A DNA stretch of 38,538 bases from NCBI GenBank assembly GCA_027014155.1, contig JALWEG010000066.1, positions 1-38,538 on the forward strand, given 5' to 3'. The stretch's first letter is position 1. Each line of letters opens with the position of its first letter. Shown here one piece after another: positions 21,744 to 28,859 of the stretch. This DNA is from Aquificaceae bacterium. GTDB taxonomy: Bacteria > Aquificota > Aquificia > Aquificales > Aquificaceae. A program made the position numbers and the translations under genes. The notes below the pieces were generated by a model. It was not told the DNA's origin, ran no database searches, and worked only from the letters and a program-made list of their open reading frames with translations.

Positions 21744-22898
21744 ATGCAGGAGGTCGTAAAGGTAAACGGGCTGAGCAAGGTTTACAAGGTCTATAAGAAA
21801 CCCTTAGACAGGCTCAAGGAGATAATCCTTAAAAGGGAGTATGCCACCAAAAAGGTGGCCCTTGACGGGGTGAGCTTCAGCATAGAGAGGGGAGAGGCCT
21901 TTGGGATAGTAGGGGAGAACGGCGCGGGCAAGAGCACGCTCCTGTCCATACTCGCCGGGATACTGCCCCCAACTTCCGGCAGCGTGGAGGTGAGAGGTAA
22001 GGTTTGTGGAATTTTAGAGCTGGGCGCGGGCTTTCACCCCGAGCTTACGGGTATAGAGAACATCTACAGCTACTCTACCCTCTACGGCCTTTCCAAGAGA
22101 GAGGTGGACCAGAACCTTGAGTTTATAAAGGAGTTCTCGGAGCTGGGAGATGCACTGCAGCAACCTATAAGAACCTACTCAACGGGAATGGTGGTAAGGC
22201 TGGCTTTCTCTACCATAATCTCCATAAATCCGGACGTGTTCATAATAGACGAAGCCCTCTCGGTGGGAGATTCCCACTTCCAGAACAAGAGCTTTAAGAG
22301 GATAATGGAGTTCATCGCCCAAGGCGGGACCGTAATCTTCACGACCCACAACCTCTATCAGATTACGGGTATATGCAAGAGGGCCATGTGGCTTAAAGAT
22401 GGACAAATTCAAGCCTTAGGCTCCTCAACGGAGGTAGTCAAGGAGTACGAGGACTACATGAGACAGAAAGACGTGAAGGAGGGAAGTCCGGGTTTTGATA
22501 GGGAAAGCTCAAAGGAGATTTACATATCCAGAATGGAGACTTCCCACAAGGTAATTGTCCCCGGAGAGGACTTTTACGTGGACTTCAGCGTTTACTCCCA
22601 GAAAGAGGCGGAGGTGGTCCTAACCTTGGCCTTCAGGAGAAATGATAACGAGTGGATAGCTTCCATGTCCTCAAGGGAGCTGGGCAAGGAGATAGTCCTG
22701 AAGAAGGGAGAGAACCGATTCAGATACGAGGTTCCCGGGTTCCCAATTCTTCACGGTTCTTACTTCGTCCATATATACCTGTTGAACGAAGAGGGGGTAA
22801 TAGCCTTAGACGAGAAGATACTCCCTCTGGAAGTGGTCAAGAGGAGCTTTATGGACTTCGGGGTCTTTAAGGTAAACGCGAACTTAAGGGCTCTATGA
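21744..22898 (+). CDS. Wzt-like ABC transporter ATP-binding protein for polysaccharide export
   Basis: A 384-residue ABC ATPase of the KpsT/Wzt group. Walker A is GENGAGKST, the signature is YSTGM (the degenerate form normal in Wzt/TagH), Walker B is VFIIDEALSVGD, and FTTHNLYQI supplies the switch His. About residues 245-384 form an extra beta-rich domain (ISRMETSHKVIVPGEDFYVDF, GSYFVHIYLLNEEG), matching the C-terminal carbohydrate-binding domain by which Wzt recognises the cap of the exported O-polysaccharide. The ATG directly follows the pseudopilin stop (TAGATG). A Wzm permease partner is missing here and must be elsewhere. Its 3' end overlaps convergent rdgB by 32 nt. Confidence 0.9.
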   Translation: MQEVVKVNGLSKVYKVYKKPLDRLKEIILKREYATKKVALDGVSFSIERGEAFGIVGENGAGKSTLLSILAGILPPTSGSVEVRGKVCGILELGAGFHPELTGIENIYSYSTLYGLSKREVDQNLEFIKEFSELGDALQQPIRTYSTGMVVRLAFSTIISINPDVFIIDEALSVGDSHFQNKSFKRIMEFIAQGGTVIFTTHNLYQITGICKRAMWLKDGQIQALGSSTEVVKEYEDYMRQKDVKEGSPGFDRESSKEIYISRMETSHKVIVPGEDFYVDFSVYSQKEAEVVLTLAFRRNDNEWIASMSSRELGKEIVLKKGENRFRYEVPGFPILHGSYFVHIYLLNEEGVIALDEKILPLEVVKRSFMDFGVFKVNANLRAL

Positions 22899-23487
22899 GG
22901 CTTGCGAGCCTTCTTAGTGCCCTTCCTCTGTGGGAGAGCTTATCCTTTTCCTCAGGTTCAAGTTCGGCCATACTTCTATCCATACCTGACGGTTTAAAGA
23001 TAGGGTCGTAGCCAAAGCCCTTCTCTCCCCTCTTTTCTTTGAGTATCTCTCCCTCGCACTCACCCTGAGCCATCAGGCCTTTATCTTCCCAGTAAAGAAC
23101 CACAAAGGCCACGAACTTTGCTCGCCTGTTTTCCTCGCCTTCCATCAACCTGAGCACCTTTCTGATGTTGGCTTCGGACTCTGTAGGTTCAGGGCTCTCT
23201 CTGCCTCCAATCTCCAAGCTGTAAAAGCGGCTGGAGTAAACGCCGGGGTAGCCTCCGAGAGCCTCTATCACCAGACCCGAATCGTCGGCCAGCGAGGGCA
23301 GTCCGAACTCCTCGTAATAGGCTTTTGCCTTCAGATAAGCGTTTTCAAGGAACGTTTCCCCGGTCTCTTCCACCTCAAGCTTGTGGGGTGGCTTAACCAC
23401 CTCAAAACCCAAGGGAGCAAGTATTCTGACAATTTCCTTCAGCTTGCCCTTGTTGGTGGTAGCCACCAAGAGTTTCACTTTTTCCAT
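22867..23487 (-). CDS. rdgB: XTP/dITP pyrophosphatase (RdgB/HAM1)
   Basis: A 206-residue house-cleaning enzyme that hydrolyses deaminated purine triphosphates (dITP, XTP) to monophosphates. The family signature is clear: LLVATTNKGKLKEI at the N-terminus, TFLENAYLKAKAYYEEFGLPSLADDSGLVIEALGGYPGVYSSRF in the middle, GEILKEKRGEKGFGYDPIF and a C-terminal LSHRGRAL. It is the last gene of a three-gene minus-strand operon, overlapping the NYN nuclease gene by 13 nt. Its 3' end overlaps the convergent Wzt-like gene by 32 nt. Confidence 0.95.
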   Translation of the reverse strand: MEKVKLLVATTNKGKLKEIVRILAPLGFEVVKPPHKLEVEETGETFLENAYLKAKAYYEEFGLPSLADDSGLVIEALGGYPGVYSSRFYSLEIGGRESPEPTESEANIRKVLRLMEGEENRRAKFVAFVVLYWEDKGLMAQGECEGEILKEKRGEKGFGYDPIFKPSGMDRSMAELEPEEKDKLSHRGRALRRLASLIEPLSSRLP

Positions 23488-24071
23488 AGACTCTTTATCT
23501 TAGCCCAGAAACCTGTCTCTTCGTAGATTGCAGGCTTGTCCTCGTACACAAACCTGTCCAAGTAATCGTCCAAGAGTATAAACCTATCGCAGGCCTTTCT
23601 AAGCTTGAAGGAGCTTGTCTTCTTGAAGGTAGCGTTCTCCACCCTCTTGCCTATGCTTTGCACCTCCTCAACCGTGTAAAGAAAATCACTGTCGCCGCTG
23701 ACCAGCATAGCGGTATCGTAGGCATCTTTGTAAGCTAGACTGAGCATATCCGTGGCCAACATTATGTCTATCTCCTTCTCTATAAACTCTCCCGAGGGTA
23801 GCTTTCTAAGGTGGGCCACCTTCACCTTTATGCCCGACAGGGAAAGCTCATCAAGAAACTTCTTCTGCCTGACGAGACTCTCCCACTCCGGGGAACCCTT
23901 ACGCACGTCCCTGTCTTGGGGCATACCTGTGTAGAAGTAAGCCCTCAGGAGCTTCCTGTTCTCCTTGAGGAAGTCCACCAGCTTAGAGTAGTCTATCTTT
24001 ATGTTCAGGTAGCGTATCCCATGAAATAGGTTGGAGCCGTCTATGAAAATGGTAAGACGCTCATCGTTCAT
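23475..24071 (-). CDS. NYN-domain (LabA/DUF88-type) PIN-like ribonuclease
   Basis: A 198-residue NYN-domain protein. The acidic active site expected for PIN-like nucleases is complete: D11 in IFIDGSNLF, D102 and D108 in EIDIMLATDML, and D127/D129 in VSGDSDF. The central part (VKVAHLRKLPSGEFIEKEID) is the typical LabA-like arrangement. A C-terminal extension of about 45 residues (YEDKPAIYEETGFWAKIKSLWKK) is basic and may bind RNA or ribosomes. The ATG overlaps the stop of the upstream eRF1-like gene by 4 nt (ATGA), and the 3' end overlaps rdgB, so all three are co-translated. NYN proteins are known or predicted RNases; the target here is unknown. Confidence 0.85.
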   Translation of the reverse strand: MNDERLTIFIDGSNLFHGIRYLNIKIDYSKLVDFLKENRKLLRAYFYTGMPQDRDVRKGSPEWESLVRQKKFLDELSLSGIKVKVAHLRKLPSGEFIEKEIDIMLATDMLSLAYKDAYDTAMLVSGDSDFLYTVEEVQSIGKRVENATFKKTSSFKLRKACDRFILLDDYLDRFVYEDKPAIYEETGFWAKIKSLWKK

Positions 24072-25291
24072 ACCTTGAACCTTAGGATAGCCGACATTCC
24101 CTCTATGCTCTTTTGAACCTCGGGGTCTATCACGACTTCAACCTTAGCCCTCTGCTCAAGAGCCTCTTCCATGACCTCGTCCACTACGTCAGACACGGGA
24201 AGGGCGCTTTCTCCTTCCAGCGGACACTCCGGCTCCAACGTAGGTAGGTGGCTCTCCGGGCATAGGTAGCCCTCTCTCTCGTAATCCTCGGCCACCAGCA
24301 AGGTTCTGATATTTCCATAGGCAAGCACCTGAAGGACCTTCTCCACACCCTTGACGGCAAGTCCCTTGCCCTCCAGCTCTTCCAGCTCCCTGTAGAGCTG
24401 CCTCTCTTCCTCTCTGTCCTTTTCCTTTAGAAGATCCAGCACCTTCTCTCTAACCTGTGCCGGCGTTGCCTCTTTGGGATTTATGTTTATGTATCCTATC
24501 AATCTGTCCCTCAGGTAAGAGTGCAGGTGATTCTCTATATCTCTCAGCCCCTCTTCCACGAAGCCTCCCACCACCAACTTATCAAACTTCCTCTCCTTCC
24601 AGTCCTCAAATAGAGCGTCGGAGGCAAGCTTGAGAATGGCGTGCCACTCGGACTTTATCCTCATGTTGAACCTGTATTCACCGAAGGAGTGCTGAATCAT
24701 GTTAGGAGAGGCCTTCCTTGAGGGCATGCTGACCTTGAAGGTTCCCTGAGCACCTTTGAGAGCCCTTCCACCGCTGTGGAACTTATGGGCTCTGGTATGC
24801 AAAGGCTGAAACATGTCTATAGTCTCCTCTATGCTCTCTATACCCATTATGAAGTAGCGGGCGTGCCTCCTGTCCACGAGGAGAACCGCCACACTGCCGA
24901 ACTCCTCATCTATGGCCGCCACCTCTCTTATGAGTGGGTCGGGTGCAACCATGAGCCTGTTTCTGTAAACGTAAGGAAGCTTTATGACCTCAAACATTCC
25001 CTTGGCCGAGCAGGAGAACACCGCCACTCCCCTGCAGGATTCCAGATTCTTCGGCTCGGAGAGAAATCTCTCTATTCGCTCAAAGTCTTCGTTTACCGAG
25101 CCAAGCACCTCCTTGCTCAAGCTCCTCTTGGCAAGGTCGGCTTTCTCCTCTTTAACCATGTCCTTGTAGAGTATCAAGAACTTACCGCCTTGCCTGTCTT
25201 CAGGCTCCAGCTTCAAGTATAGATTGCTTACCATATAGCCCTCGGCTTTGAATTCGGAAAGTCTTTGCACCGCTTCAAGTAAACTGCCCAT
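24068..25291 (-). CDS. Bacterial archaeo-eukaryotic release factor (eRF1/Pelota-like) family protein
   Basis: About 407 residues resembling the bacterial aeRF1-like (baeRF) families. The middle has FSCSAKGMFEVIKLPYVYRNRLMV, then AVLLVDRRHARYFIMG, the eRF1 domain-2-like strand, then an SGGRALKGAQG loop (residues 173-183) near where eRF1 carries its GGQ. The segment KFDKLVVGGFVEEGL follows. The C-terminal third (GVEKVLQVLAYGNIRTLLVAEDY) matches eRF1 domain 3, ending in a Cys/His stretch (CPESH, ECPLE) like a degraded zinc ribbon. ATG 25291 is chosen for the GAGGAG 6 nt upstream; ATG 25309 gives six more residues without a Shine-Dalgarno. Family members include ribosome-binding hibernation or rescue factors such as Balon. 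The true GGQ is absent, so peptide release is not expected. Confidence 0.7.
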   Translation of the reverse strand: MGSLLEAVQRLSEFKAEGYMVSNLYLKLEPEDRQGGKFLILYKDMVKEEKADLAKRSLSKEVLGSVNEDFERIERFLSEPKNLESCRGVAVFSCSAKGMFEVIKLPYVYRNRLMVAPDPLIREVAAIDEEFGSVAVLLVDRRHARYFIMGIESIEETIDMFQPLHTRAHKFHSGGRALKGAQGTFKVSMPSRKASPNMIQHSFGEYRFNMRIKSEWHAILKLASDALFEDWKERKFDKLVVGGFVEEGLRDIENHLHSYLRDRLIGYININPKEATPAQVREKVLDLLKEKDREEERQLYRELEELEGKGLAVKGVEKVLQVLAYGNIRTLLVAEDYEREGYLCPESHLPTLEPECPLEGESALPVSDVVDEVMEEALEQRAKVEVVIDPEVQKSIEGMSAILRFKV

Positions 25292-25346
25292 CTTCATCTC
25301 CTCTGACATTTTTATTACCAATTCTATTTTAACCCTCCAAAAGGAC

Positions 25347-25375
25347 TTGACATTTAGTAAACTCACGTTTACATT
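25347..25375 (+). promoter_or_regulatory. Cytochrome c gene promoter, TTGACA-17-TACATT
   Basis: TTGACA at 25347-25352 and TACATT at 25370-25375 are 17 nt apart. The cytochrome ATG is 7 nt after the -10, so the expected transcription start falls at 25382-25383, the ATG itself. There is no Shine-Dalgarno. Confidence 0.65.
25357..25372. promoter_or_regulatory. Perfect inverted repeat inside the cytochrome c promoter
   Basis: GTAAAC, four bases, GTTTAC: a perfect dyad located between -35 and -10 and overlapping the -10. Position suggests an operator at which a dimeric repressor would block RNA polymerase. It does not match the FNR (TTGAT-N4-ATCAA) or CRP consensus. The regulator is unknown. Confidence 0.5.

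Positions 25376-26881: not shown

Positions 26882-28859
<1,978 letters not shown>

Follow-up and report, generated by a model that had tools for sequence, protein, structure and literature searches.

The first gene of a minus-strand operon (22867-25309) in the window, which comprises positions 1 to 38,538 of contig JALWEG010000066.1 of an Aquificaceae bacterium (GCA_027014155.1), encodes a divergent new member of the baeRF/Balon kind, a full three-domain Balon-type aeRF1 protein. This gene (gene 1; 24068..25309) is followed by a gene for a protein of the NYN (PIN-like) ribonuclease family (23475..24071, minus strand) and by a third gene for RdgB. The NYN gene was found directly downstream of gene 1 in every Aquificaceae carrier surveyed. 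The partnership of the two genes is real in the genome, while a functional partnership is unproven. We favour, at a probability of about 0.5, the reading that gene 1 encodes an accessory A-site factor for times of stress that is co-expressed with mRNA-cutting enzymes.

Structure of the gene 1 protein

The initial annotation had assigned gene 1 to the eRF1/Pelota-like proteins, Balon included, and the Pfam matches upheld this. The protein exceeded the cut-offs (score/cut-off in bits) of baeRF_family12 (64.3/27.7; 2.3e-17), baeRF_family10 (46/27.1; 8.5e-12), baeRF family3 (33.4/31.5), and eRF1_3 (33.7/25.8; 5.4e-8). For baeRF families 10 and 12 (PF18854 and PF18856; Burroughs and Aravind 2019, PMC6514570), HPF is the gene association given in the original paper, and the word NYN is absent from its main text.

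The AlphaFold2 (AF2) model of the protein was built from 32 relatives (predicted local distance difference test (pLDDT) of 83.9 and predicted template modelling score (pTM) of 0.80). All three aeRF1 domains were present in the model, and its residues 4-411 aligned to 8v9l. The Foldseek and VIA-align comparisons, which rest on one predicted model per protein throughout, placed Balon proteins first. The top six VIA-align matches were all Balon proteins (Z of 24.8 with 367 residues aligned at 4.8 Å for 8v9l, MSMEG_1130; Z of 20.7 for 8rd8, Balon), and the best eRF1 and Pelota matches were 6xa1 (Z of 15.4) and 3oby (Z of 14.0), respectively. Foldseek gave Balon proteins ranks 1, 2, and 4-7 (2.6e-20 to 3.7e-15) and the archaeal aRF1 4af1 rank 3. 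The comparison with eRF1, Pelota, and Balon proposed in the initial annotation thus yielded a predicted fold that is aeRF1-like over three domains and nearest to Balon.

The N-terminal domain (about residues 8-137; 24899..25288, minus strand) aligned with 8v9l and the eRF1 N domains 2lgt and 2llx, and by analogy with Balon and eRF1 it is a putative decoding-centre domain. The C-terminal eRF1 domain 3 (about residues 283-413; 24071..24463, minus strand) was recognized by the eRF1_3 match given above and by 3ir9 (Z of 14.6 across 124 residues in VIA-align). It carries in the model a small insert (347-372) of short strands (347-350, 355-357, and 370-372), in which C350 and C362 were invariant in the alignment.

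Neither NIKS nor GGQ was found in a string check of the protein, the N-terminal domain included, and release activity of gene 1 is therefore unlikely. The GGQ-loop position in the middle domain is occupied by a loop (residues 168-209; 24683..24808, minus strand) that is disordered in the model, with low pLDDT, yet contains the best-conserved stretch of the protein, with invariant columns. The mean column entropy was 0.51 for residues 173-189, whereas domain 2 outside this stretch had 1.03, and the N and C domains had 1.35 and 1.12, respectively. As the region at the GGQ position is poorly conserved in the broadly distributed baeRF families 1, 2, and 6, according to the part of PMC6514570 dealing with them, the gene 1 subfamily differs in this respect. 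Balon, which blocks the A site, has neither NIKS nor GGQ, and its lasso loop at the GGQ position touches 23S rRNA, as described in sections of PMC10901736. The gene 1 protein is like Balon and MSMEG_1130/Rv2629 (8rd8, 8rdv, 8rdw, 8v9j, 8v9k, and 8v9l) in its three domains, in the lack of NIKS and GGQ, in the loop replacing GGQ, and possibly in the stranded C-domain insert predicted by the model.

Pairing of gene 1 with the NYN ribonuclease gene

The 198-aa NYN protein matched PF01936 with 111 bits against a cut-off of 24.2 (9.1e-32). D11, N14, D102, D108, D127, and D129 were conserved in an alignment of 59 distinct orthologues, and the full acidic active site described in the initial annotation was thereby confirmed. 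The NYN domain and catalytic aspartates are held in common with the NYN/PIN ribonucleases Rae1/YacP, the B. fragilis CRISPR NYN, MARF1, and VPA0982. The B. fragilis enzyme is a manganese-dependent RNase that is inactivated by D13A, and its aspartates match those of the window protein (from portions of PMC11346440). By analogy, we infer that the window protein is a metal-dependent single-strand RNase; among these enzymes, ribosome-dependence is recorded for Rae1 alone, in the portion of PMC11346440 that cites it. A sequence search against solved structures gave a weak match to 2qip. PADLOC reported HEC-09 (1.1e-17) and a LabA-like NYN model, and a role as a defence gene was not adopted, because NYN is near-universal in the phylum. 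A second NYN protein in the same genome (G000:C44:2177-2659) is 42% identical, and its relatives are common in the phylum.

For the survey, 136 Aquificota genomes were used (G, C, L, f, and g numbers are our labels for genomes, contigs, loci, families, and genera). Family f1 was taken as Aquificaceae because its named gene 1 relatives are labelled Aquifex, Hydrogenobacter, Thermocrinis, and Aquificaceae. Gene 1 was present in 51 of the 136 genomes, and 127 had a NYN match when the paralogue is counted. NYN lay directly downstream of gene 1, with gaps of -1 to 19 nt, in all 45 Aquificaceae carriers; G042 (gene 1 in two pieces) and G016 and G045 (NYN cut by a contig end) were counted by the adjoining piece. 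In the window, the two genes meet in an ATGA stop/start overlap (24068..24071, minus strand), which likely couples their translation.

The 21 close co-directional gene pairs of the window were compared with nine loci of other genera, and only gene 1-NYN (9/9) and NYN-RdgB (3/9) recurred, so that the gene 1-NYN pairing exceeds chance; as these loci were chosen for carrying gene 1, distant pairs were under-tested. Over all ten loci, gene 1 and NYN were adjacent in ten, a gene for a RelE-fold protein and gene 1 in six, NYN and RibF (named by Pfam) in five, and NYN and RdgB in four, with no further close co-directional pair above two.

A RelE-fold protein encoded upstream of gene 1

A gene of about 390 codons was located 2-65 nt upstream of gene 1 in 33 of the 51 carriers. 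Its product combines a long coiled coil with hydrophobic segments at the N-terminus, as read from the sequence, and with a RelE-fold domain at the C-terminus; examples of this Aquificaceae protein are at L046:6809-7960 and G000:C2:22964-24160 (L144:5965-7161). The gene was present somewhere in 47 of the 51 carriers, and in the window's genome it is unlinked, on another contig (G000:C2). It was found in 60 genomes altogether, 13 of which, some of them drafts, had no gene 1 match; three weak matches (G062, G083, and G130) were excluded from these counts. An association of gene 1 with NYN and this coiled-coil protein was not found in the papers searched, all of them open-licence PubMed Central articles.

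A profile of the C-terminal domain (26 sequences) had E. coli RelE as its best match in the PDB (E of 0.0019). The domain model (pLDDT of 87.7) matched Cami1 (6.0e-4) and RelE (1.2e-3) in Foldseek and HigB1 (Z of 9.9) and ribosome-bound RelE (Z of 8.8) in VIA-align. A Z near 9 is moderate for a small predicted domain; the profile match is independent, and the matches listed were of the RelE/ParE type. No Pfam toxin model exceeded its cut-off, and the Pfam matches for the whole protein were dismissed as coiled-coil noise. K68, R75, K97, and K99 were invariant in the 26 sequences, with K68 and R75 aligning with a Lys and an Arg of RelE, whose mRNA cleavage uses basic catalytic residues. The fold is the same as that of the RelE/HigB mRNA interferases and Cami1 (8phb); unlike these, the domain belongs to a longer chain that also includes the coiled coil and the hydrophobic segments, and no antitoxin was identified. 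The protein is a probable ribosome-dependent mRNA cutter that is apparently membrane-anchored. In four genomes of genus g9 (G052, G053, G054, and G057), the gene directly upstream of gene 1 was EpmA-like, encoding the EF-P lysine ligase; the copy scanned was over the NCBIfam cut-off, and the EpmA gene at L050:6759-7655 overlaps the start of gene 1 by 1 nt.

Proposed role of the operon

According to the favoured reading, the gene 1 protein, being catalytically inert, would enter the ribosomal A site under stress, halt elongation, and preserve the ribosome. Its N domain would be placed at the decoding centre and its conserved middle loop near the peptidyl-transferase centre, while its C domain would meet EF-Tu. 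NYN, translated from the same message via the ATGA overlap, would trim or destroy mRNA concurrently. The ancestral operon would have begun with the coiled-coil RelE-fold protein, and the set would combine translation shut-off with mRNA clearance, the Balon-like protein being an accessory that lineages may discard.

Balon homologues are widespread, and few have been studied. With a putative A-site occupant stably paired with a predicted RNase, and with the RelE-fold neighbour besides, it becomes possible to test directly whether ribosome hibernation is linked to mRNA turnover. The proteins, which come from a heat-loving bacterium, should be heat-stable and purify well, and natural in-frame deletions of gene 1 (described below) offer ready-made comparison lineages.

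A more specific proposal is a three-part shut-off operon of Aquificaceae that joins a Balon-like A-site occupant to two nucleases, a tethered one with the RelE fold and the NYN RNase. The Balon-like protein would set, for each ribosome, whether the A site is parked and protected or left open to mRNA cutting, and would thus link hibernation to mRNA destruction. We consider this proposal speculative and unlikely. If it is true, the repeated in-frame deletions that spare both nuclease genes would mark lineages without the protective arm.

Exceptions to the pairing, and loss and probable transfer of gene 1

Several observations on the protein, its neighbours, and its distribution weigh against the reading of gene 1 as a co-expressed A-site factor. 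The protein scored 52.2/330, 47.5/480, and 26.4/320 bits against NCBIfam models NF052287-NF052289 (Balon, MSMEG_1130, and Rv2629); these scores are far below the cut-offs, and it was therefore filed as an orthologue of none of the three. Its identity to Balon and MSMEG_1130 is 14-17%. A string check found no His-Pro dipeptide in residues 1-135, whereas Balon uses an HP motif in this domain; HP was present at 124-125 in 7 of 37 aligned relatives. The NYN partner is absent among the neighbours that the relevant part of PMC10901736 names for Balon, the most frequent of which is RaiA/HPF, and RaiA/HPF lies on another contig in the window's genome.

No NYN was found next door in the other six Aquificota carriers, which were five genomes of family f3 (different contigs; all the f3 carriers) and G103. 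Outside the phylum, matches to family 12 or 10 were obtained in 31 genomes (11/157 and 29/255; union of 31). NYN was detected in 14 of these 31 and was adjacent in none; G178 was the sole carrier with NYN on the same contig, about 9.6 kb away and as a partial match. A general eRF1-like/NYN pairing across bacteria was rejected on this count (0/31), and within the genomes sampled the gene 1-NYN pairing is confined to Aquificaceae. The neighbourhood survey suggested in the initial annotation thus showed the adjacency in all the Aquificaceae carriers and in no other carrier (6 in the rest of Aquificota and 31 outside the phylum).

NYN was also retained without an intact gene 1. This was the case in seven f1 genomes (G012, G014, G019, G035, G044, G048, and G055), most of them drafts, which were examined for loss. 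In six of the seven, NYN comes next after the RelE-fold gene, at distances of -1 to 100 nt. Gene 1 remnants were identified in three draft genomes (L131:1505-1620, L132:3868-4113, and L128:5290-5350), two of them in-frame internal deletions, with the NYN start left in place. The G048 remnant is a short open reading frame (ORF) that fuses roughly the first 16 codons of gene 1 to roughly its last 11, with the NYN stop/start overlap intact; in the G055 remnant, some 50 codons from the N-terminal end and 55 from the C-terminal end share one frame, and the G014 remnant consists of the last few codons. The ATGA overlap followed the remnants in G048 and G014 as in the window. No clear remnant was seen in G012, G019, G035, and G044. 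As the deletions are in frame, the translation of NYN would be spared.

The genomes lacking gene 1 were scattered on the NYN tree, implying 10-11 changes of state (outgroups included) with weak support; the count is rough because 23 of 56 inner branches were drawn open, and the remnants are firmer. The remnants and this scatter make it probable that the ancestor of Aquificaceae had gene 1 and that it was lost on several occasions, two or more of them through in-frame deletion. Genus g5 and family f2 had NYN without gene 1, except for one copy in G103.

This copy lies on a contig of Sulfurihydrogenibium yellowstonense SS-5 (L044/L072, 3793 bases; 34% guanine-cytosine (GC) content), is 85% identical to a g9-type copy, and has no NYN nearby. 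A convergent RelA/SpoT gene (31% GC) is about 1 kb from it. Contamination was set aside on this GC evidence, as a 34% GC contig with a 31% GC RelA/SpoT gene makes transfer likelier than a stray contig. Gene 1 of G103/SS-5 has thus probably moved between families alone, without NYN, although misassembly is possible.

The initial annotation had proposed that the two proteins form a module of ribosome rescue or hibernation plus RNA cleavage. The aeRF1-like fold and the conserved adjacency speak for that idea, but NYN is near-universal, gene 1 is lost alone and occurs away from NYN in f3 and Sulfurihydrogenibium, and no pairing was seen outside the phylum.

Alternative explanations

The repeated losses disfavour an obligate complex, and simple co-expression is therefore the main rival. 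Gene 1 would then encode a hibernation factor of the Balon type and share its promoter with NYN, a housekeeping RNase unrelated to it in function, with no joint mechanism. The near-universal presence of NYN in the phylum, its position elsewhere beside phosphoglucomutase (g5) and queuine tRNA-ribosyltransferase (f2), the loss of gene 1 without NYN, and the metabolic genes (RdgB and RibF) following NYN all agree with this. It explains less well why the two genes stay adjacent in every Aquificaceae carrier when hardly anything else of the local gene order is preserved, and why the other recurrent neighbours (RelE fold and EpmA) are translation-related too. We regard it as possible, and prefer the accessory A-site factor.

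Alternatively, gene 1 would act on stalled ribosomes in the manner of Pelota/Dom34, with NYN cutting the mRNA as in rescue or no-go decay. The structural relatives include Pelota (Z of about 14), the NYN/PIN nuclease Rae1/YacP works in a ribosome-dependent manner (stated in a portion of PMC11346440), and EpmA beside gene 1 in g9 points to stall biology. However, the Balon structures matched clearly better than Pelota, N domain included, and this genome encodes a Smr-domain protein that might serve in such a capacity. Gene 1 was linked to neither a Hbs1-like GTPase nor an ABCE1-like splitting factor, although no search was made for these. We consider a rescue function improbable.

Gene 1 might also shield ribosomes and mRNA from the RelE-fold protein like an antitoxin, such a guard being lost once the threat has diminished. 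No other gene is found upstream of gene 1 as often as the RelE-fold gene, which is also present in nearly all carriers, and structures of ribosome-bound RelE are available (4v7j and 4v7k). A true antitoxin, however, should not permit a RelE-fold gene without gene 1, and 13 of 60 genomes had this state, including six in which NYN immediately follows the RelE-fold gene; RNA cleavage by this domain is, moreover, putative. We consider the guard very unlikely. An alternative release factor hydrolysing peptidyl-tRNA, for which the eRF1 domain 3, the eRF1-like middle domain, the unusually conserved loop, and the glutamine reportedly kept in baeRF family 10, also matched here (a passage of PMC6514570), could be cited, was rejected as hardly credible, since the window protein has no GGQ and, across the aligned family, an invariant G-E precedes the next helix, whereas Q206 close by varies.

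Organization of the locus

ORF calling bore out the three overlapping minus-strand genes of the initial annotation, with overlaps at 24068-24071 (4 nt, ATGA) and 23475-23487 (13 nt). The full ORF of gene 1, stop included, spans 24068-25366. The ORF is real, but its start had been placed at ATG 25309 (413 aa), and ATG 25291 (codon 7 of that ORF; 407 aa) appears more likely, because homologues begin there, GAGGAG is located at 25298-25303 (6 nt upstream), and the model is disordered over residues 1-7. Immediately upstream of gene 1, a promoter-like site (ATGTCA-16-TAAAAT; 25326..25353, minus strand) is weak, with five sites in the region against 2.3 expected from shuffles, and faces a divergent site for a cytochrome-c-like gene.

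The third gene (22867..23487, minus strand; 206-aa ORF) encodes the RdgB/HAM1 non-canonical purine nucleoside triphosphate pyrophosphatase, as had been proposed. It matched Ham1p_like (PF01725, 2.1e-61) and was over the cut-offs of the equivalog and subfamily models TIGR00042 (191.3/145.35 bits) and PRK14824 (292.3/267). RdgB adjoins NYN only in genera g1, g2, g3, and g11, and with adjacency in these four genera only it was rejected as a conserved partner. GroES/GroEL-like genes, recognized by eye, lie on the opposite strand at 26882-28859, about 1.5 kb from the operon.

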